DNA of 46,855 nt from an uncultured Ectothiorhodospiraceae bacterium (lineage in GTDB: Bacteria > Pseudomonadota > Gammaproteobacteria > Nevskiales > Oceanococcaceae), in assembly GCA_937141935.1 (NCBI GenBank), contig CAKZQS010000024.1:1-46855 (forward strand). The letters are read 5' to 3'. Numbering within the stretch: position 1 is the first letter of the stretch; every line of letters starts with the position of its first letter. The translations under genes were made by a program, and so were the position numbers. Positions 30,014 to 46,855 of the stretch are shown here, piece after piece. A model generated the notes under the pieces. It was not told the origin of the DNA. It saw nothing but the letters and a program-made list of their open reading frames with translations, and searched no databases.

Positions 30014-30104
<91 letters not shown>

Positions 30105-30136: not shown

Positions 30137-30178
30137 ATTTGGAGATGGGGGTGGCGCGCCGAACCCACCCGGGTTCGA

Positions 30179-30252
30179 CAATTCCGCAGGACAGCGGAAT
30201 TGGACGAGCCGCAGGCTCGCCCCGCAGGGGTGCGGGCCACGGATGGCCCGCA
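30179..30252 (+). repeat. four-hairpin element, copy in tRNA-Ser array (A)
   Basis: Four consecutive stem-loops: CAATTCCGC/GCGGAATTG (30179-30202), CGAGCC/GGCTCG (30205-30219), CCCC/GGGG (30220-30230), TGCGGGCC/GGCCCGCA (30231-30252). Left flank GGGTTCGA and right flank AATCCCACCC together recreate the tRNA-Ser T-arm. Confidence 0.75.
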
Positions 30253-30329
30253 TCAATCCCACCCGCTCTCGCGTTCCGTCCTCGGACCACACCAAACGGT
30301 GGCCCCGTCAAACGACCCTCCGAACGCCC

Positions 30330-30396
30330 CCGCAGAACAGCGGACGGACGAGCCGCAGGCTCGCACCGCAGGGGTGCGGGCCAAGGATGGCCCGCA
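30330..30396 (+). repeat. four-hairpin element, copy in tRNA-Ser array (B)
   Basis: A degenerate copy of the preceding element: short first stem CCGC/GCGG, second stem CGAGCC/GGCTCG kept, third stem eroded, fourth stem TGCGGGCC/GGCCCGCA at 30375-30396 kept. It is followed 3 bases later by the 13-base tRNA-Ser 3' copy. Confidence 0.65.
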
Positions 30397-30646
30397 TCAA
30401 TCCCACCCTCTGAGCCGTTCCGTCCTCGGACGAGACCAGCCGGTGAGACCGCCATACGACCCTCCGCACGCCCCTCCAGGCGCGTGCCCATGGTCTGCCC
30501 TGCCCCATTGGTCGCCCCCCCAGAACAGCGGACGAACGAGCCGCAGGCTCGCCCCGAAATCGCGTTCCGGCCTTTGGCACCCCCAGGTCCCAGCGCCACC
30601 CAGACGAACCCACCCGGGTTCCTCCACGCCATCCCTGGACCTCCAC

Positions 30647-40419: not shown

Positions 40420-42522
40420 CTAGCGCACGCGCTGCGACCAGCTGCGCTCCCACATCTGCAGATAGGCCTCGGCCGAGCGGAACAGCGGGTCGATGATTTC
40501 GGCGCTGTTCTCTTCCAGGCGGATCGCCTCGAACCACTCCGGCCACAGGCCGTAGTGCGCCACGCCTTCGGCGTTGTAGTCGAAGACCCGCTCGCCGGTC
40601 TGCTGGCGATCAAAGCGCACGCCGCCGTCGATCGACGCGAAGGGATACGCCACCTCCGGCGAGCCCTCGTCCGGCTTGCCCGGGCCCGAGGCGCCATTGA
40701 CGTCCGAGGACATCGGCACACCGAAATAGAACTCGGGGCTGGCCAGCGCGCGCAGCTTGCGCACCTCGGGGCCAAAGTCCTCGGCATCCGGCTTCACCGG
40801 CGCCGCCAGGCCGCCCATCGCGTAGATTCGCCGCAGCATCGCATCCGAATAGGTGCCACCGGCGTGGAAGTGCCCGGCGTAAACGGGGTAGCCGCGGGCC
40901 TCGGTCAGATCCAGCACCTGGTTGCGGGCGCGGATGCCGATGTGGTCGGTTTCGATGATGATGCCGTAGTCCATCAGCCGCTCGACCACGTACACGCCCA
41001 GCGGCGTCAGCGCCTTGCTGTTGCAGTGCGGGCCGGGGCCGTAGGTGGGCACCGCCGCGAACTGGGCCTCATTGAGCGCCGTGGCCATGGCCGAATCGCC
41101 CTCGAAATGCATGCCCACCGACTGCATGTTCGCGCCCAGGCCCTCTTCCGGGCAGTCCTCCACGTCGTAATAGCGGCCGGTATCGAGCTTGTTGAACAGG
41201 TTCAGCACCAGCTCCGAGGGGCCGAACAGGCCACCGCCGGCGAAGGCGTTGTCGTACCAGTGGTTGATGAAGGCCGCGCGCACGCCCAGCTCGTCAAAGC
41301 GGCGTAGCTGGGCATCGATGTCATCCAGCGTGCAGGTGGGTGCCTCCAGAAACTCGCCGCAGTTGAAGAGCTTCTCGGCCTCGATGGCCATCACCACGGC
41401 CAGCTTGCCCTGCTCGATGACCTCGCGGGCATCCGCCGGCGTGTCGACAATGCGAAAGTAGCCCTGCCCCGGGCCGCCGGCCTGGGCATCGATGTAGTCC
41501 TGCATGTGCTGCATGCGCCGGATCTGCGCCTCGACGCCGTCCATCTCGTCGCAGTCGGTGCCCTGCACCACCGTCAGCCGGCAGATCGTCTCGTTGCCCA
41601 GCGCGTGCGTGACCAGCAGCCGCAGGCCGCCCATCCAGGCCCGCTCGATCCAGCGGTAATAACTCTGGCTGTGCGTGTAGGTGCCGCGCTCGGGCCAATC
41701 GACAAAGTCGGGCCAGCCGCGGGTTTCATGCGTGCCCACCGGGGTGCCGTCGCGCAGCATGTTGCCCAGCGTGTCCAGGCTGCCCTGCGGGCCGTGCTTG
41801 TCGGCGCAGTCCTCCAGCGCGTGGTCCACGCCATAGGGGTGGAAGGTGTCGCCATAGCTGCTGGAGGTCGTGGCGATGTGCGAGTGGCCGTCGGCCACGC
41901 CATAGACCGTGCCGTCCGGGTTGCTGCCGCGAAAGCTCGTGCCGGCGAGGTTCAGGCCGGCCTCGGGGAATTCGGCGCAGCCGCTGCTGGGCACGAAGCG
42001 GAAGCGATCCCCCGTGCCCTCGGCCAGCGCCAGGCTGCCGTCTTCCGCCTGCACCAGGCCGCGCCCGTCGGCCCGCGCCGCCACGGTGAAGCCCTCGCCT
42101 GGCGTGAACTCCACGACCCACTCGGCGGCCTGGCTGCGCGTGGCGCTGGCGGCCACGCTGCTGGCCCCCGTCAGCCCGCGGCTGACCGCCATGACCTCGC
42201 CATCGGCATCAAAAAAGAGGTACTCGCCCAGCGTCGTCGGCCGCAGCACAAAGGGCGTGGCCTGCGCCGCCTCCGCGGCGTCGCCGGTATAACCCGCATC
42301 CGTCTTGCGCACCAGGCCCGCGTCGTCGAAGCGGCCGAAGGCCAAACAGCGGTTCGCCAATGCATAGCGGCTGTCCAGCTCGCTCGCGGCACGGCTCCCC
42401 GTGCCCGCCTCGCCCTCGCGCCCGCCACCACAGGCCGCAAGCCCCAGCACAGCGCCCAGCAAAACCACGGCCCAAGCCGGCCGAACCGCGCCCACCGGCG
42501 CAGCAGTATTCCAATAACCCAC
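40420..42522 (-). CDS. large lipoprotein hydrolase, M19/amidohydrolase-like
   Basis: A 700-residue lipoprotein (LGAVLGLAAC, lipidated Cys31). Residues about 45-190 form a beta-rich N-terminal domain (PFVLRPTTLGEYLFFDADG, WVVEFTPGEGFTVAA). The catalytic part begins with GVADGHSHIAT, a metal-binding D-x-H-x-H type motif, continues with VVMAIEAEKLFNCG, IETDHIG and VYAGHFHAGG, and ends EGVAHYGLWPEWFEA, a text seen in exported proteins annotated as membrane-dipeptidase/amidohydrolase relatives. The substrate is unknown. Start GTG 42522 has GGAG 6 bases upstream. Convergent with the GAF kinase, 4 bases apart. Several Cys suggest disulfides outside the cytoplasm. Confidence 0.75.
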   Translation of the reverse strand: MGYWNTAAPVGAVRPAWAVVLLGAVLGLAACGGGREGEAGTGSRAASELDSRYALANRCLAFGRFDDAGLVRKTDAGYTGDAAEAAQATPFVLRPTTLGEYLFFDADGEVMAVSRGLTGASSVAASATRSQAAEWVVEFTPGEGFTVAARADGRGLVQAEDGSLALAEGTGDRFRFVPSSGCAEFPEAGLNLAGTSFRGSNPDGTVYGVADGHSHIATTSSSYGDTFHPYGVDHALEDCADKHGPQGSLDTLGNMLRDGTPVGTHETRGWPDFVDWPERGTYTHSQSYYRWIERAWMGGLRLLVTHALGNETICRLTVVQGTDCDEMDGVEAQIRRMQHMQDYIDAQAGGPGQGYFRIVDTPADAREVIEQGKLAVVMAIEAEKLFNCGEFLEAPTCTLDDIDAQLRRFDELGVRAAFINHWYDNAFAGGGLFGPSELVLNLFNKLDTGRYYDVEDCPEEGLGANMQSVGMHFEGDSAMATALNEAQFAAVPTYGPGPHCNSKALTPLGVYVVERLMDYGIIIETDHIGIRARNQVLDLTEARGYPVYAGHFHAGGTYSDAMLRRIYAMGGLAAPVKPDAEDFGPEVRKLRALASPEFYFGVPMSSDVNGASGPGKPDEGSPEVAYPFASIDGGVRFDRQQTGERVFDYNAEGVAHYGLWPEWFEAIRLEENSAEIIDPLFRSAEAYLQMWERSWSQRVR

Positions 42523-42697
42523 GGTGTCTCCTCAAGCTCGATTGGCGGGCGCGAAGCGCCGCGCATGGCGAGGCCAGTGTACGCAGCCCCAGCGGCCAGC
42601 GAAGTAGCAAATCCGTCGCTTGCGCTCCGCGTCAAACCATGCATCCCACGTTCCACCGCCAACGGCGAAGCGAGCCCGGTGTCGAGTGGCAGACACG

Positions 42698-42724
42698 AAA
42701 AAGCCTGCGCAAAGGCCGGCTTTT
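42698..42724 (-). terminator. terminator-like hairpin in array, unit 1
   Basis: An imperfect stem (minus strand AAGCCGGC ... GCAGGCTT, one mismatch) followed by TTTTCG; eroded copy of the others. Confidence 0.5.
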
Positions 42725-42736
42725 CCTACGAGCTTT

Positions 42737-42758
42737 TGGCTCCCGAGGACGTGCTCGA
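42737..42758 (-). repeat. tRNA-Asn 3'-end copy 1
   Basis: 22 bases equal to the T-loop half, T-stem, acceptor strand and CCA of tRNA-Asn (43371-43392), with one change. Confidence 0.85.
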
Positions 42759-42838
42759 CAATCCGGCAGGAGGCCGGATTGGACGCGTAGGCGCAGCCGG
42801 AGCGCCCCGAAGGGGTGAGGTCCAGAATGGCCCGAATC
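42759..42838 (+). repeat. four-hairpin element, tRNA-Asn array (1)
   Basis: First stem CAATCCGGC/GCCGGATTG (42759-42781), a second stem-loop region around GGCGCAGCCGGAGCGCC, third CCCC-GAA-GGGG (42805-42815), last GGTCC...GGCCC. Directly follows tRNA-end copy 1 and is followed by a second element. Confidence 0.75.
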
Positions 42839-42920
42839 ACGAATCGGCAGGACAGCCGATTCGGACACGGAGGCGAAGCCGCAGTGCCCCGAATGGGTGA
42901 GGGCCAGGATGGCCCGAATC
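42839..42920 (+). repeat. four-hairpin element, tRNA-Asn array (2)
   Basis: First stem CGAATCGGC/GCCGATTCG (42840-42863), middle stems GGCGAAGCC and CCCCGAATGGG-like, last GGGCC-AGGAT-GGCCC. In tandem with the previous element, explaining the longer unit. Confidence 0.75.
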
Positions 42921-42966
42921 CACCGCCGAAGGCGGTGAGAGCCCGGTACCGAAAGGCGGAAACGAA

Positions 42967-42990
42967 AAAGCCGGCACAAAGGCCGGCTTT
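42967..42990 (-). terminator. terminator in array, unit 2
   Basis: Minus strand AAAGCCGGC, loop, GCCGGCTTT then TTCG; lies just after tRNA-end copy 2 in the reading direction. Confidence 0.75.
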
Positions 42991-43003
42991 CTCTATGAGC
43001 TTT

Positions 43004-43025
43004 TGGCTCCCGAGGACGGGCTCGA
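43004..43025 (-). repeat. tRNA-Asn 3'-end copy 2
   Basis: 22 bases identical to tRNA-Asn 43371-43392, including the encoded CCA. Confidence 0.9.
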
Positions 43026-43102
43026 CAATCCGGCACGAAGCCGGATTGCACGGTCCGGCGCAGCCGGGCCGCCCGAAGGGCGAGGGGCAGGAGCCCCGAG
43101 TG
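43026..43102 (+). repeat. four-hairpin element, tRNA-Asn array (3)
   Basis: First stem CAATCCGGC/GCCGGATTG (43026-43048), then GTCCGGCGCAGCCGGGCC, GCCC-GAA-GGGC and GGGGC-AGGA-GCCCC. It is followed by ACCGCCGA, as the T-arm of tRNA-Asn would be. Confidence 0.75.
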
Positions 43103-43146
43103 AACCGCCGAAGGCGGTGAGAGCCCGGTATCGAATGGCAGAAACG

Positions 43147-43172
43147 AAAAAGCCGGCGCAAAGGCCGGCTTT
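43147..43172 (-). terminator. terminator in array, unit 3
   Basis: Minus strand AAAGCCGGC, loop, GCCGGCTTT followed by TTCG; near-identical to unit 2. Confidence 0.75.
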
Positions 43173-43185
43173 CTCTATGAGCTTG

Positions 43186-43207
43186 TGGCTCCCGAGGACG
43201 GGCACGA
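43186..43207 (-). repeat. tRNA-Asn 3'-end copy 3
   Basis: 22 bases matching tRNA-Asn 43371-43392 with one change in the T-loop part (GGCACGA for GGCTCGA). Confidence 0.88.
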
Positions 43208-43288
43208 CGAATCGGCAGGACAGCCGATTCGGACACGGAGGCGAAGCCGGAGTGCCCCGAAGGGGCGAGGGGCAGGAGCCCCGAGTCC
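43208..43288 (+). repeat. four-hairpin element, tRNA-Asn array (4)
   Basis: First stem CGAATCGGC/GCCGATTCG, then GGCGAAGCC, CCCC-GAA-GGGG and GGGGC-AGGA-GCCCC; flanked by the tRNA-end copy 3 and ACCGCCGA. Confidence 0.75.
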
Positions 43289-43334
43289 ACCGCCGACGGC
43301 GGTCGAGAACCGATGGAGCGGGGGCACAAACGAA

Positions 43335-43357
43335 AAGGCCGGCATAAAGCCGGCCAT
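43335..43357 (-). terminator. terminator of tRNA-Asn
   Basis: Minus strand GGCCGGC, loop TTTAT, GCCGGCC followed by TTTTCG, 16 bases beyond the CCA of the tRNA-Asn fragment. Confidence 0.8.
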
Positions 43358-43370
43358 TCCTACTATCTGT

Positions 43371-43417
43371 TGGCTCCCGAGGACGGGCTCGAACCGCCGA
43401 CCCGGTGATTAACAGTC
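43371..43417 (-). tRNA. tRNA-Asn (GTT), 3' part only; probable att site
   Basis: Read on the minus strand: GACTGTTAATC (anticodon loop with GTT), then TCACC and the variable loop, T-arm GGCGG-TTCGAGC-CCGTC, acceptor strand CTCGGGA, discriminator G and CCA (43371-43373). The 5' half is missing: the base pairs expected upstream of the anticodon (GGTGA) are replaced by CCGGA, and neither D-arm nor 5' acceptor strand follows. A break at the anticodon stem is a usual boundary for a tyrosine-recombinase element inserted in a tRNA gene. An assembly join is the alternative. Confidence 0.85.
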
Positions 43418-43455
43418 CGGATGGAAACGCAGCGAATTCAACGGTCTTGCCTTGA

Positions 43456-43522
43456 TTTTTTGCGCCACGGGCCCGCTGTAACGTACTGATTATTCGTGGC
43501 CCTCAACGCTTTTTGCGCCACG
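43456..43522 (+). repeat. 13-base direct repeat near the att boundary
   Basis: TTTTTGCGCCACG occurs at 43457-43469 and again at 43510-43522, 53 bases apart, within about 100 bases of the broken tRNA-Asn. A partly inverted GCCACGGGCCC/CGTGGCCC pair lies between. Such repeats could be arm-type integrase or excisionase sites; this is a guess from position. Confidence 0.5.
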
Positions 43523-43708
43523 TTTTTCGCCCTGCTCTGCTGCCCCGGCCGAGCGCGATTTCGCGCGCGGATCCACCGGCCGGCAGGGCGGCGTGCTCCA
43601 GGCCTGGTAGGCCGGCGGGGGCGCCTCGCCGCGCCGCTGCTGCTCAATGTATTCCCGCGCGGCCTGCTGCATTGCGCGCAGCTCGGCCGGGGTTTTGCGT
43701 TTGGCCAT
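43490..43708 (-). CDS. small hydrophilic protein, island/prophage
   Basis: A 72-residue basic, soluble ORF (MAKRKTPAELRAMQQAAREYIEQQRRGEAPPP), helical at the start and Pro/Arg-rich afterwards. No family is recognised. Its start is 4 bases from a LexA-type palindrome, so it may be SOS-controlled. No good ribosome binding site is visible because the palindrome occupies that place. Confidence 0.5.
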   Translation of the reverse strand: MAKRKTPAELRAMQQAAREYIEQQRRGEAPPPAYQAWSTPPCRPVDPRAKSRSAGAAEQGEKRGAKSVEGHE

Positions 43709-43712
43709 CGGT

Positions 43713-43732
43713 TACTGTGCAAAATGACAGTA
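43713..43732. promoter_or_regulatory. LexA (SOS) box
   Basis: TACTGTGCAAAATGACAGTA is a perfect match to the gammaproteobacterial SOS box in its conserved ends (TACTG-N10-CAGTA; core CTGT-N8-ACAG). It lies between two divergent small genes (43490-43708 and 43800-44021), just inside the presumed integrated element. It is AT-rich compared with its surroundings, which makes chance less likely. Confidence 0.7.
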
Positions 43733-43799
43733 TGCGCGATGTCCGGCTGCGCGGCGGGGCTGCGTACTGATGCTGCACACCACCTTTGTGAGCAGCACC

Positions 43800-44021
43800 A
43801 TGAGCTACTGGATCTTCCGCACCCCGCAGGGCACGTGCCTGGCCGTCGATGAAGAGGCGCTGGCCGAGGGTGGCATCGGCGACGACCTGGGCGAGCTGAT
43901 TTACGACGACCCGATGCCGCGGCTGATCGCCGCGCTGCATGTGGGGATGATGGGCGGCGGCATTGTGGATCCGGTGCCTACGCCGCCGAAGCGGTCGGCG
44001 GCGGCGCTGCAGGCGGCGTAG
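43800..44021 (+). CDS. small acidic protein downstream of the SOS box
   Basis: A 73-residue acidic ORF (MSYWIFRTPQGTCLAVDEEALAEGG), with IGDDLGELIYDDPMPRLI in the middle and a Pro/Ala tail. ATG 43770 is an alternative start giving 83 residues. No family is recognised. It is the first gene to the right of the LexA box. Its end overlaps the convergent ORF 43978-44172 by 44 bases, so one of the two may be shorter or false. Confidence 0.5.
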   Translation: MSYWIFRTPQGTCLAVDEEALAEGGIGDDLGELIYDDPMPRLIAALHVGMMGGGIVDPVPTPPKRSAAALQAA

Positions 44022-44172
44022 GCGCCCCGCCAGCGCCCCGCGCCCGCCAGCGCCGCTGAGCGCGGGTCAGGCGCCGGCCGATGATGATGTCGATGCTGTG
44101 CACCCACACGGCGCGGGCGATGATGACGGTGAGCACGGCGCCCAGCAGCATGCCGAGCAGCAGCGTGCTCAC
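43978..44172 (-). CDS. small single-helix membrane protein, island/prophage
   Basis: A 64-residue ORF from GTG 44172: an N-terminal membrane helix (STLLLGMLLGAVLTVIIARAVWV), a short basic stretch (RRLTRAQRRWRARG) and a Pro/Ala-rich tail. The start overlaps the stop of the next ORF by 4 bases (GTGA), as in compact phage operons. The look is that of small phage membrane proteins; no specific family can be named. Confidence 0.5.
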   Translation of the reverse strand: MSTLLLGMLLGAVLTVIIARAVWVHSIDIIIGRRLTRAQRRWRARGAGGAPTPPAAPPPTASAA

Positions 44173-44369
44173 TGCGCCTCGTCCGGCAGCGCGGGGTGGG
44201 CGGCCCGGGCGATGGAGAGGATGGCGGCGAGCGCCAGCCAGGTGGCCAGGCGCAGCAGCCAGCAGGCACGGCAGCCGGCGGCCGCTGGCGCCGGCGCCCG
44301 GGTGGGGCGCGAGGCGGTGCTGGGTTGGTCAGCGGCGGCGGCGCTTGGCGATGGCGGTTTCGATGGCAT
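44169..44369 (-). CDS. small membrane protein, island/prophage
   Basis: A 66-residue ORF from ATG 44369: Pro/Ala/Ser-rich N-terminus, then CRACWLLRLATWLALAAILSIARAAHPAL, one membrane helix with two Cys before it. It overlaps the preceding coiled-coil gene by 41 bases and the following ORF by 4, so the three form a cassette. No family is recognised. Confidence 0.45.
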   Translation of the reverse strand: MPSKPPSPSAAAADQPSTASRPTRAPAPAAAGCRACWLLRLATWLALAAILSIARAAHPALPDEAQ

Positions 44370-44637
44370 CGCGCTTTTCCTGAATCCACGGCCCCAGCGC
44401 CGGCCAGGTGTCGGCCAGGTCGCTGAGCAGGCCGCGGTAAAGGTGCACCTCGTAGCTATAGTCGCGCAGCGATGCGCGCAGCTCGTCGACATCGCGCGCC
44501 TGTTTGCGCATCTCACCTGTTAGGCGGTCGCGGTCGACTTCCAGCTGGTGGTGGCGGGCTTCGAGCAGCTCGGCGCGCCGCAGCAGGCTTTCGTACTCGG
44601 CGGGGGTGGGCAGAACCCGCCGCTCGCGCACGGGCTG
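44329..44637 (-). CDS. coiled-coil protein, 5'-truncated, island/prophage
   Basis: About 100 residues of a charged helical protein: PTPAEYESLLRRAELLEARH, then a heptad-like run to RKQARDVDELRASLRD, then WPALGPWIQEKRDAI and a basic end (AKRRRR). Its beginning is lost at the join with ribosomal sequence near 44640; codons further upstream on this strand are just antisense of rplD. No family is recognised. Confidence 0.5.
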   Translation of the reverse strand, partial: QPVRERRVLPTPAEYESLLRRAELLEARHHQLEVDRDRLTGEMRKQARDVDELRASLRDYSYEVHLYRGLLSDLADTWPALGPWIQEKRDAIETAIAKRRRR

Positions 44638-45018
44638 CCGATCTGGCGCGGCGGTGGTCAGACCTTCGCGCTGACGCCTCGCGATTTCTCGCAGAAGCTC
44701 AACAAGAAGCAGTGGCGTGTCGGCCTGCGCAGCATGCTTTCCGAGCTGCTCCGCCAGGACCGCATTCGCCTGGTGCAGGAAATTACCCTGCCGGACCACC
44801 GCACCAAGAGCGTCAAGTCCTGGCTGGATGGCATTGGTGAAGGTCGCGTGCTGGTCGTCGACACCCAGATCAGTGATGAGCTGGCGCGGGGCTCGGCGAA
44901 CCTGCCGCAGGTTGAGTTGTGTCTGGCCGGGCGTCTGAATCCGGCGGCCCTGGTCGGCGCCGATCTCGTGGTCCTCACCGCGGCGGCTGCTGAAGCGATT
45001 TCGGAGTCCTTGTCATGA
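44638..45018 (+). CDS. rplD: ribosomal protein L4, N-terminus missing
   Basis: The last 126 residues of L4: PIWRGGGQTFALTPRDFSQK, KKQWRVGLRSMLSEL and a C-terminal globular part ending AEAISESLS. About 80 N-terminal residues, including the long loop before the WRGGG, are absent; antisense of island genes lies upstream instead. It is the first of a run of S10-operon genes with less extreme GC and different codon use from the rest of the window. The stop overlaps the rplW start (ATGA). Confidence 0.9.
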   Translation, partial: PIWRGGGQTFALTPRDFSQKLNKKQWRVGLRSMLSELLRQDRIRLVQEITLPDHRTKSVKSWLDGIGEGRVLVVDTQISDELARGSANLPQVELCLAGRLNPAALVGADLVVLTAAAAEAISESLS

Positions 45019-45329
45019 GCCGCATCAATCCCACGAGCGAAAAGGCCTACCAGGTGCTGATCGCACCGCTGGTGTCTGAGAAGTCCTCGCTGCTGGCGGA
45101 GAATCTCAACGTCGTCGCCTTCGAGGTCAGTCGTGATGCCACCAAGCCCCAGATCCGGCGTGCGGTTGAATCCCTGTTCGACGTCAAGGTCGTGACCGTG
45201 AGTACCGTGCGGGTCAAAGGCAAGACCAAGCGTTTCGGTCGCAGTTTTGGCCGTCGGTCGGACTGGAAGAAGGCCTATGTGCGTCTGGCCCAGGGCCAGG
45301 AAATTGATTTCACCGCAGGCGCCAAATAA
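45015..45329 (+). CDS. rplW: 50S ribosomal protein L23
   Basis: A 104-residue L23 with APLVSEKSSLLAE near the start, VVAFEVSRDATKPQIRRAVE, the FDVKVVTVSTVRVKGK core and RRSDWKKAYVRL. It binds 23S rRNA at the exit tunnel and serves as docking site for trigger factor and SRP. Extended N-terminus MSRINPTSEKAYQ and text overall look alphaproteobacterial. Full length. Confidence 0.95.
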   Translation: MSRINPTSEKAYQVLIAPLVSEKSSLLAENLNVVAFEVSRDATKPQIRRAVESLFDVKVVTVSTVRVKGKTKRFGRSFGRRSDWKKAYVRLAQGQEIDFTAGAK

Positions 45330-45358
45330 GGCGCCGGGCAGAGTGAGGAAATCTTAAG

Positions 45359-46192
45359 ATGGCAACCCAGAAAGCCAAGCCGACTTCCGCCGGACGCCGC
45401 TTTGTCGTGCGCGTGGTCGGTCAGGACCTGTACAAAGGCAAGCCGCATCAGGCGCTGGTCGCGAAGAAGTCGAAGACCGGCGGCCGGAACAATCAGGGCC
45501 GGATCACCACGCGGCACCGGGGTGGCGGTCACAAGCAGCGTTATCGACTGATCGATTTCAAGCGCGACAAGGACAATGTTCCCGCGGTGGTTGAGCGTCT
45601 GGAATACGATCCGAACCGGACCGCGTTCATTGCGCTGATCAACTACGAAGATGGTGAGCAGGCCTACATCCTGGCGCCGCAGCGTCTGTCCCCGGGCGAC
45701 AAGGTCGTTTCCGGTGAGCGTTGCGACATCAAGCCGGGCAATGCCATGCCGTTGCGCAACATGCCGGTGGGCACGGTCATCCACAATGTGGAACTGAAGC
45801 CCGAAAAGGGTGGCCAGATCGCCCGTTCGGCTGGTACGTACGCGCAGCTGATCGGCAAGGATTCCGGTTATGCGCAGCTTCGTCTGTCCTCTGGTGAACA
45901 GCGGATGGTGCGTGGCGAGTGCATGGCCACTGTCGGCGCGGTCAGCAACCCGGACCAGCAGAATGCGAAGCTCGGCAAGGCCGGTCGCAAGCGCTGGCTT
46001 GGCAAGCGTCCCGCAGTTCGCGGTGTCGCCATGAACCCGGTCGACCATCCGCACGGCGGTGGTGAAGGCCGGACCTCCGGCGGTCGTCATCCGGTGACGC
46101 CGTGGGGCAAGCCCACCAAGGGCAAGCGTACCCGTTCGAACAAGTCGACGGATCGCTTCATCATGCGGTCGCGCCACCAGCGCAAGAAGTAA
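45359..46192 (+). CDS. rplB: 50S ribosomal protein L2
   Basis: A 277-residue L2, needed for subunit joining and peptidyl transfer. Conserved text: [20 protein letters not shown], the active-site region [16 protein letters not shown] with the essential His, and [27 protein letters not shown] precedes the ATG. Full length; the start [16 protein letters not shown] is of alphaproteobacterial type. Confidence 0.96.
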
Positions 46193-46206
46193 GAGAGGAC
46201 GTCTAA

Positions 46207-46485
46207 ATGGCTCGTTCGGTTTGGAAAGGTCCGTTTGTTGACGGTTATCTTCTCAAGAAGGCTGAGAAGGTTCGTGAAAGCGGCCGCAATGAAGTGATCA
46301 AGACGTGGAGCCGTCGCTCCACCATCCTGCCGCAGTTCGTCGGTCTGACTTTCGGCGTCTACAACGGCAACAAGCATATCCCGGTCTCCGTATCCGAGGA
46401 CATGGTCGGCCAGAAGCTCGGTGAATATTCGCCGACACGGACCTACTACGGTCACGGCGCCGACAAGAAAGCGAAGAGGAAGTAA
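46207..46485 (+). CDS. rpsS: 30S ribosomal protein S19
   Basis: A 92-residue S19: [20 protein letters not shown], then [20 protein letters not shown] and [20 protein letters not shown]. It lies in the head of the small subunit. The text matches alphaproteobacterial S19 closely. GAGGACG precedes the start. Confidence 0.96.
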
Positions 46486-46487
46486 CG

Positions 46488-46855
46488 ATGGGCAAGGCAA
46501 AAACCCCGCGCCGGCTCAAGGACAACGAAGATTGGCAACAGCAGCGCATTGCCGAATTCAAGACAGAACTGGAAGAGTCTGTATACGTAATCAGTGATTT
46601 CGTTCTCGCTGACACCATTCCACCGGCTGAACTCCTACAGCAAGAGGCAGAGGAAAGTAGGATTGCAACAGAAGAAAAGGCTATTAAAGAACGAATTAAA
46701 CAAACCTCACTTTTGGATTTTGATGGTCTTATCACGTACATCGAGGTTAACGGGAATCAGCTTCCTCCGGGTATGGTGTCCAGTCTTGTTTTAGAAGCTG
46801 TTGCAGCCAAAATGATGCTCCAGGTCAGTGATTTTGAGTCACGGCTCAAAACAGC
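46488..46855 (+). CDS. rplV start fused in frame to unknown sequence
   Basis: The first 14 residues, MGKAKTPRRLKDNE, are the typical beginning of alphaproteobacterial ribosomal protein L22, in the expected place after rpsS. From about 46528 the similarity stops: no SPQKLNLVA follows, and the frame continues open to the window end with an acidic helical sequence (RIAEFKTELEESVYVISDF, PPAELLQQEAEESRIATEE, LLDFDGLITYIEVNGNQLPP) that I do not recognise. The DNA there is visibly AT-richer. The ORF is cut by the end of the window. I read it as a join of unrelated DNA, not a gene fusion. Confidence 0.6.
   Translation, partial: MGKAKTPRRLKDNEDWQQQRIAEFKTELEESVYVISDFVLADTIPPAELLQQEAEESRIATEEKAIKERIKQTSLLDFDGLITYIEVNGNQLPPGMVSSLVLEAVAAKMMLQVSDFESRLKT

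Follow-up and report, generated by a model that had tools for sequence, protein, structure and literature searches.

Tandem units behind a remnant of tRNA-Asn each carry a multi-hairpin element inside their copy of the tRNA T-arm, and units of the same plan stand behind many other tRNA genes of this genome, with the orientation of the element linked to base 59 of the tRNA. We consider it probable that these arrays arose from a mobile palindromic element with a niche in the tRNA T-loop, which was inserted into duplicated tRNA tails and then amplified in tandem. The window, i.e., the whole stretch of DNA analysed (46,855 nt), is the entire contig C24 of an uncultured Ectothiorhodospiraceae bacterium (genome G000; 3.57 Mb, 52 contigs).

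Anatomy of the tRNA-Asn array

Three 22-nt copies of the tRNA-Asn tail lie on the minus strand, with ends at 43186, 43004 and 42737, and their start-to-start distances of 267, 182 and 185 (tRNA remnant counted in) agree with those given in an earlier, sequence-only reading of this DNA. A 169-nt unit (repeat family D1) is repeated at 81% and 70% identity. The same reading had placed a terminator behind each copy, and direct inspection together with repeat family D2 bears this out, as a GC-rich hairpin with a T run stands 3' of each tail copy; a simple terminator scan listed only 2 terminator-like sites versus 1.2 expected in shuffles. What had been overlooked is a multi-hairpin element inside the T-arm copy of every window unit, matched by our covariance model R1 (see below).

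Followed along the minus strand, the array begins with the 3' part of tRNA-Asn (43371–43417; anticodon arm to CCA) and a terminator-like hairpin behind it (43337–43355, terminator scan). Unit 1 consists of an element with its TCC-loop strand in the tRNA sense (43202–43288; R1 75.1 bits), a copy of the T-loop 3' part, T-stem 3' strand, acceptor and CCA of tRNA-Asn (43186–43207; 14/14 segment bases and CCA match) and a terminator-like hairpin (43144–43173; direct reading and family D2, absent from the terminator scan list). Unit 2 repeats this order with its element at 43020–43103 (64.8 bits), its tail copy at 43004–43025 (14/14 and CCA) and its hairpin at 42962–42991 (direct reading and repeat search, likewise absent from the scan list). 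Unit 3 holds two consecutive elements found by searching the genome with R1 (42834–42921, 74.8 bits; 42753–42839, 64.3 bits, the latter without a separate listing in the locus search), then a tail copy (42737–42758; 13/14 and CCA) and a hairpin that direct reading, repeat search and terminator scan all recovered (42697–42724). A truncated fourth unit seems to follow, reaching to about 42653. The window also contains tRNA-Ser(cga) on the plus strand (30014–30104; base 59 = A) with an array of its own, in which the element has the opposite orientation, with its GGA-loop strand in the tRNA sense (30173–30255, minus strand, 80.3 bits), and is followed by a second copy (30322–30399, minus strand, 43.3 bits).

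An integrative element appears to separate tRNA-Asn from its array

The sequence-only reading took a tRNA-Asn to head the array, which our search corrects: ARAGORN reported tRNA-Ser(cga) as the only tRNA gene in the window, and the array is preceded solely by the tRNA-Asn 3' part at 43417–43371(−). An intact tRNA-Asn lies on contig C13, where a 50-bp block identical to window positions 43368–43417 falls within the gene (C13:9416–9465), with a tyrosine integrase frame just downstream and with no own-tail copies downstream. The right end of C13 has 75 bp in common with window positions 44566–44640, in a fitting orientation. From the integrase beside tRNA-Asn and these shared 75 bp we infer that the tail-side array was probably displaced when an integrative element of some 39.6 kb entered tRNA-Asn, C13 and C24 presumably being joined; 43418–44640 would then be the end of that element, and the remnant its putative att core on the attR side. 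Only the block 43368–43417 fits an att core. The units themselves are not simple att relics, because the element sits within their T-arm copy, so that of the earlier suggestion of multiple integration sites the part that holds is the apparent use of tRNA-Asn by one integrative element.

Comparison with relatives bears on whether the array is real. In genome G001, of the same genus, such a unit stands directly behind tRNA-Asn, without the island, which argues that the array is not an assembly product. Two same-family genomes, G002 and G003, possess tRNA-Asn (loci L055 and L054) with no element match. The sequence-only reading had named relatives lacking the repeats as a refuting observation, and such relatives do exist in the family, but we read the absence of repeats from G002 and G003 as gain and loss and not as an artefact.

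Units of the same plan follow many tRNA genes

Evaluating 41 tRNA genes of G000 (intact tRNA-Asn included, one dubious ARAGORN call omitted), we found exact matches of 13–22 nt to the gene's own tail downstream of 10, namely Ala(cgc), Arg(acg), Val(gac), Gly(ccc), Met, Leu(caa), Ser(gga), Glu(ttc), Ser(cga) and Leu(taa); intact tRNA-Asn was one of the 31 that lacked any. Such a frequency speaks against chance. At these ten sites no tail of another tRNA matched over more than 13 nt, a length that ties with the gene's own match for Ser(cga) and Leu(taa). Altogether, units mostly 140–270 bp long stand behind at least 11 different tRNAs of the genome.

R1 found 30 copies in G000, and all of the 26 that were listed adjoin a tRNA or lie in a tRNA-derived unit: 19 within 800 nt downstream of an intact tRNA, 4 in the window array, 2 in tRNA-Val tail units on contig C20 with no tRNA gene nearby, and 1 interrupting an almost complete tRNA-Arg(tct) copy immediately 5' of the intact gene. 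Exact matches to the C hairpin (see below) number 12, of which 11 sit in tRNA arrays, a distribution that disfavours a general REP of this genome; the twelfth, at a contig start (C37:28), has the Met-array hairpin sequence.

The element is a conserved set of paired hairpins

The element spans about 70–90 nt and is built of hairpins A and C, both with a TCC loop, separated by one or two short GC hairpins; TCGA mostly stands 3' of hairpin C, and on the opposite strand the loops read GGA. This loop triplet, GGA or TCC depending on the strand, belongs to the best-conserved positions of the element, while the stems vary freely. Across 132 model-aligned matches (A2), 97.7% of 1739 pair cells are standard pairs and stem changes are two-sided in 461 cases versus one-sided in 14, with 25–46% paired in slid-partner controls; these counts are less biased than those from A1, where covariation is partly built in because elements were chosen for perfect stems, but they are fitted to the model. 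The elements on which R1 was trained, chosen for perfect stems, came mostly from tRNA loci and included a few flanking bases, which may bias its best matches towards tRNA sites. Four units fold better than shuffles, with z of −3.9 and −4.8 in the window, −2.9 in E. coli and −2.7 at locus L021.

Probable insertion beside TCGA in the T-loop and the link of orientation to base 59

Near-full-length tRNA copies reveal the point of interruption. At locus L096, two tRNA-Ser copies are identical to the intact gene in 72/72 bases up to A58, then carry a 70-nt insert and resume at base 59, with 13/14 matches in the tail; as A occupies both position 58 and position 59, duplication of a single base may have taken place there. 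The same break is seen at L098, L213 and L223 (of which L098 and L213 look like one locus), with one mismatch in the 73 bases before the insert and a match of only 10/14 bases in the tails after it. In the TCC orientation, as read from the units, the break falls between bases 54 and 55, an observation that led us to drop a reverse-transcription stop at modified A58 as an origin.

Insertion 3' of TCGA on one or the other strand of the palindrome TTCGAA would account for both breaks (58/59 and 54/55), and it predicts that the GGA orientation needs an A at base 59. This prediction is largely borne out, with 29 GGA and 9 TCC loci where base 59 is A and 2 GGA and 21 TCC loci where it is another base (Fisher P=2e-7, treating loci of shared ancestry as independent); the exceptions are thus nine A59 loci in TCC and two non-A59 loci in GGA orientation. 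Each tRNA locus received one vote in this count, which rests on hand-entered matches from two locus searches (44/74 and 52/122); the entries left out were mainly loci without tRNA and duplicates, 13 of the 96 entered were dropped as having no assigned tRNA, and the duplicate loci L084/L171 and L093/L172 were removed. Among the 28 best loci of the class, 15 lie downstream of a tRNA, all 15 with A59 and the GGA orientation, while 4 precede their nearest tRNA and, for the other 9, the fetched sequence contains no tRNA.

The E. coli tyrT repeats share this plan

The rtT repeats of E. coli have been known since the 1970s. In K-12, the tyrT/tyrV repeats read GGTTCGA, then a multi-hairpin insert, then AATCCTTCC...CCA, which places the insert at the same T-loop position as in our arrays and in the A59 orientation. 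The parallel with tyrT that the sequence-only reading drew is therefore closer than it stated: the unit plan is the same, R1 matches three E. coli repeats at E 3e-4 in 2.7 kb (a fourth at 0.013), and an R1 match (E≤0.05) lies inside the RtT match, on the opposite strand, in 19 of 20 RtT loci fetched. Of these 20 loci, 18 stand behind a tRNA on the same strand. The Rfam RtT model (RF00391) matches the tyrT/tyrV repeats and, at E≤0.001, 50 of 274 genomes of the class, 18 of them above its cut-off.

The window in turn follows the tyrT-type plan, with tandem units near 180 bp (spacing 182, 185 and 267), tails matching in 14, 14 and 13 of 14 bases plus CCA, and a multi-hairpin insert between the T-arm 5' part and the tail, recognised by R1 in the window as in the E. 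coli repeats (locus L198). The RtT repeats resemble the arrays described here in their tandem position behind a tRNA, their exact own-tail segment, the T-loop position of the insert and the inverted tail copy upstream (see below). They differ from the window array in the opposite orientation of the element, the tRNAs at the RtT loci inspected having A at base 59; the window array for its part belongs to tRNA-Asn, now separated by an island, and is not recognised by RF00391, which gave no match in window positions 42500–43500 up to E=10 and none in G000 at E≤0.001 (cut-off 45 bits). A tRNA-Ser unit of the same-genus genome G001 reaches 31.8 bits against that cut-off. For the window array no Rfam family reaches its cut-off, and weak sX14, rnk and RsmZ matches were taken as chance. 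We conclude that a larger set exists, in which RtT represents the A59 orientation class and the window tRNA-Asn array the other.

RttR is an annotated E. coli sRNA, and one table row marks rttR as REP-containing (PMC12306157). A passage in PMC4986893 describes RtT RNAs as tRNA operon products with stringent-response effects and places RtT-family RNAs upstream of tRNA-Asn and tRNA-Lys genes in Actinobacillus pleuropneumoniae, which bears on the remark in the sequence-only reading that no such array was known to it for tRNA-Asn.

Distribution and dispersed copies

R1 matches occur in 39 of 61 genomes comprising our own and its relatives (E≤0.001), in 110 of 274 sampled genomes of the class (own included, E≤1e-4) and in 53 of 200 genomes of the phylum (own included), where scans of more than 40 genomes used stricter filters at which weak matches are lost. 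A pattern scan of named genomes returned 21 stretches, 10 of them with a tRNA close by, including Rudaea and Mariprofundus ferrooxydans; the Bacteroidales stretches (L081, L083, L092) hold hairpin C only, as partial matches at E 0.01–0.04.

Several genomes possess near-identical dispersed copies away from tRNAs, which means that the element is not confined to them, and many of these copies sit inside longer repeats, so that they may be passengers. By eye, some of the longer repeats resemble MITEs. We evaluated a Y1/RAYT transposase as a possible partner and set it aside: no Y1_Tnp match was found in three of eight genomes searched (G000, G010 and G044; E≤0.001), all three of which carry many copies, and none of the seven Y1 loci found had a convincing R1 match beside it (best E 0.042).

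Other known systems share part of this picture. REP/REPIN sequences with their RAYT transposases carry a GTAG-like tetranucleotide at the hairpin foot. Our element is like them in its short paired hairpins, its non-autonomous nature, its dispersal in some genomes and its apparent insertion 3' of a short motif; it differs in a flank that by eye is TCGA or a related GA sequence instead of GTAG, in its strong tRNA linkage in G000 and in the three of eight genomes without a Y1 transposase match. Rickettsia palindromic elements are palindromic elements inserted in genes, and they share with ours the placing of multi-hairpin units inside genes (here tRNA copies), though ours are placed mainly in the tRNA T-loop in this genome and are arranged in tandem. 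Element copies were also seen by eye within a glmS-like frame and a group II intron maturase-like frame. Integrative elements that target tRNAs likewise use tRNA 3' halves, and one apparently did so at tRNA-Asn here, but they are long and carry an integrase, for which the units are too short. In Methanopyrus kandleri, a palindrome with a different motif stands behind tRNA genes, according to a passage in PMC5217627.

Tail segments are often retained and also occur as degenerate inverted copies

The tail segment (bases 60–73) has 0/14 mismatches in the first clear unit of nine arrays (Asn, Met, Ala, Arg, Val, Gly, Ser(gga), Glu and Leu(caa)), whereas units 1 and 2 outside the tail are 74% (Asn) and 85% (Ala) identical, and 56% identical for Ser(gga), where gap columns from a length difference are counted. 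Elsewhere the segment has changed, with mismatches numbering 3 and 2 in Ser(cga), 2 in Leu(taa), 4 in Ser(gct) and 3 in the second Gly unit. An acceptor segment is still present in the Glu, Ser(gga) and Leu(caa) arrays, but these lack CCA.

Between terminator and element, the spacer contains an inverted, degenerate version of the gene's own tail, with a mean score of 19.5 versus 14.3 for other tRNAs across 43 hand-chosen first units (P=1.4e-7, a rank P that treats ancestry-sharing loci as independent). In the window Asn unit this copy is not convincing (score 13; 6 of 40 others as high). By eye, the inverted T-loop reads TGAG in place of TTCG in 11 of 20 RtT loci, a count that the RtT model may favour.

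A proposed origin and its alternatives

On the insertion account, a tRNA gene or its tail would initially be duplicated, and a non-autonomous element of about 70–90 nt would insert beside TCGA in the TTCGAA of the spare T-loop. Either strand could serve, one of them when base 59 is A and the other always, and no clear target duplication would result, in the manner of hairpin-guided transposition of single-stranded DNA. The spare copy would then lose its 5' half by decay, and tail plus element would be amplified by recombination or template switching. Tail segments would be kept parent-like in most arrays by conversion or selection, and the later entry of the integrative element into tRNA-Asn would have moved the array about 39.6 kb away in G000. 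As part of this whole reading, the E. coli tyrT (RtT) repeats are probably the same thing in one orientation, the window tRNA-Asn array being the other. We are evenly divided over a broader proposal, in which a widespread, unnamed family of mobile palindromic DNA elements in Proteobacteria would have the conserved tRNA T-loop as its site-specific niche and hairpin-guided single-strand insertion, into either TTCGAA strand, as its mode, with rtT repeats as diverged members and base 59 largely deciding which strand is transcribed. Among the papers that searches of an open-licence library brought up, titles and abstract openings revealed none linking such arrays to T-loop insertion.

A further reading, compatible with an insertion origin, takes up the processed small RNAs that the sequence-only reading had suggested: the units would be transcribed together with the tRNA and released as structured RNAs whose 3' end resembles that of a tRNA, acting as RtT-like sRNAs or as decoys for tRNA-processing or tRNA-binding factors, and selection would maintain tail and hairpins. 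We regard this as possible though rather doubtful. The nine arrays with an identical first-unit tail segment may hint at RNA function, all the more beside units that diverge elsewhere, and the better-than-shuffled folds (z −2.7 to −4.8), the annotation of RttR as an sRNA and the stringent-response effects described for RtT RNAs (the passage in PMC4986893) point the same way. Yet the tie of strand to base 59 means that the strand in the tRNA sense changes from tRNA to tRNA, the tail has mismatches in Ser(cga), Ser(gct), Leu(taa) and the second Gly unit, CCA is absent in three arrays, few stem changes are one-sided, and one table row of an sRNA screen lists RttR without marked change (PMC4606813). 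A more specific role, as a CsrA/RsmA sponge, would have the strand with GGA in two hairpin loops titrate CsrA, which recognises GGA in hairpin loops. The constancy of the loop GGA/TCC over freely varying stems would suit it, but the GGA strand is antisense to the tRNA in 21 of 23 non-A59 tRNAs and clear GGA loops are absent by eye from the E. coli units; the orientation result disfavours any uniform function of that strand, and we deem such a sponge very improbable.

Template switching by itself, in which a polymerase turns back at the terminator and T-loop palindromes, copies the tail in inverted and direct form and perfects the hairpins as by-products of the same process, would account for the inverted own-tail copy in the spacer and for stem changes that are nearly all two-sided. 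We judge it unlikely, as the module order and loop motif are common to unrelated tRNAs and other repeats, which slippage would not recreate each time, and the inverted copy is unconvincing in the window Asn unit itself. That the units are relics of repeated phage or island integration at tRNA 3' ends, an idea to which the tyrosine-integrase element apparently lodged in tRNA-Asn lends some appeal, seems least probable of all: judged by length, most are too short for an integrase gene, their T-loop copy is interrupted, and they occur behind no fewer than 11 different tRNAs of G000. Insertion of a mobile palindromic element into spare tRNA tails, followed by tandem amplification, is thus the reading we favour.

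Implications

What is new here is that the tyrT unit plan is generalised to many tRNAs and to both strands, together with a testable account of its origin. The E. coli tyrT/RtT repeats, known but unexplained, gain a wider family, an anatomy and a proposed origin, from which follow the predictions that insertion occurs next to TCGA in the T-loop, that orientation is tied to base 59 and that an inverted tail copy lies upstream. Small RNAs, mobile palindromes and tRNA genes are thereby brought together, and a caution follows, in that what looks like a tail copy or a broken tRNA behind a tRNA gene need not be a phage scar.

tRNA-derived units and array ends elsewhere in the genome

In the source genome, a near-full-length copy of tRNA-Arg(tct) is present on contig C33 (positions 182-345 of fetched locus L021), its T-loop interrupted by the element, a palindromic multi-hairpin module of about 70-90 nt. 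This copy lies directly before the intact gene, and the region upstream is duplicated as well. On contig C20, two tRNA-Val tail units (L049, 1570-1960) occur with no tRNA-Val gene nearby, and their homology to the array on contig C13 starts approximately at the terminator; they represent either a dispersed array or an assembly effect. Because the end of C36, the start of C13 and apparently also the start of C37 fall inside tRNA arrays, this assembly yields only minimum values for the lengths of the arrays.

An integron integrase matching TIGR02249 at 473 bits (L036, 2917-3939) lies on C13 as well, roughly 1.4 kb downstream of tRNA-Asn, and adjoins the tyrosine integrase of the inferred island in that tRNA gene. 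In the window, the inferred island end is joined to a second piece of the S10 operon (44641-46855), with 67% identity to the copy on C34, containing an rplD fragment (Pfam) and putative rplW, rplB and rpsS (translations judged by eye), and followed by an AT-richer, unrelated frame; the contig looks chimeric across this stretch.

Contexts of the element and its proposed insertion site

Inspecting element copies by eye, we observed some (L090, L097, L094) within putative group II intron maturase-like and glmS-like frames, possibly as in-frame insertions. Several others, in L131-L138 from the same-genus genome G001 and L155-L166 from genome G006 (five and three loci read from these sets, respectively), lie within longer repeats bearing terminal inverted repeats, also judged by eye. 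One G006 copy appears by eye to be flanked by CTAG, in the manner of IS5-type MITEs.

In the spacers preceding the element, the inverted copy of the T-loop frequently has TGAG instead of TTCG (e.g., L247, L248, L265 and the E. coli tyrT/tyrV repeats, L198), and the TCGA within TTCGAA, the proposed insertion site of the element, is therefore gone from these copies.
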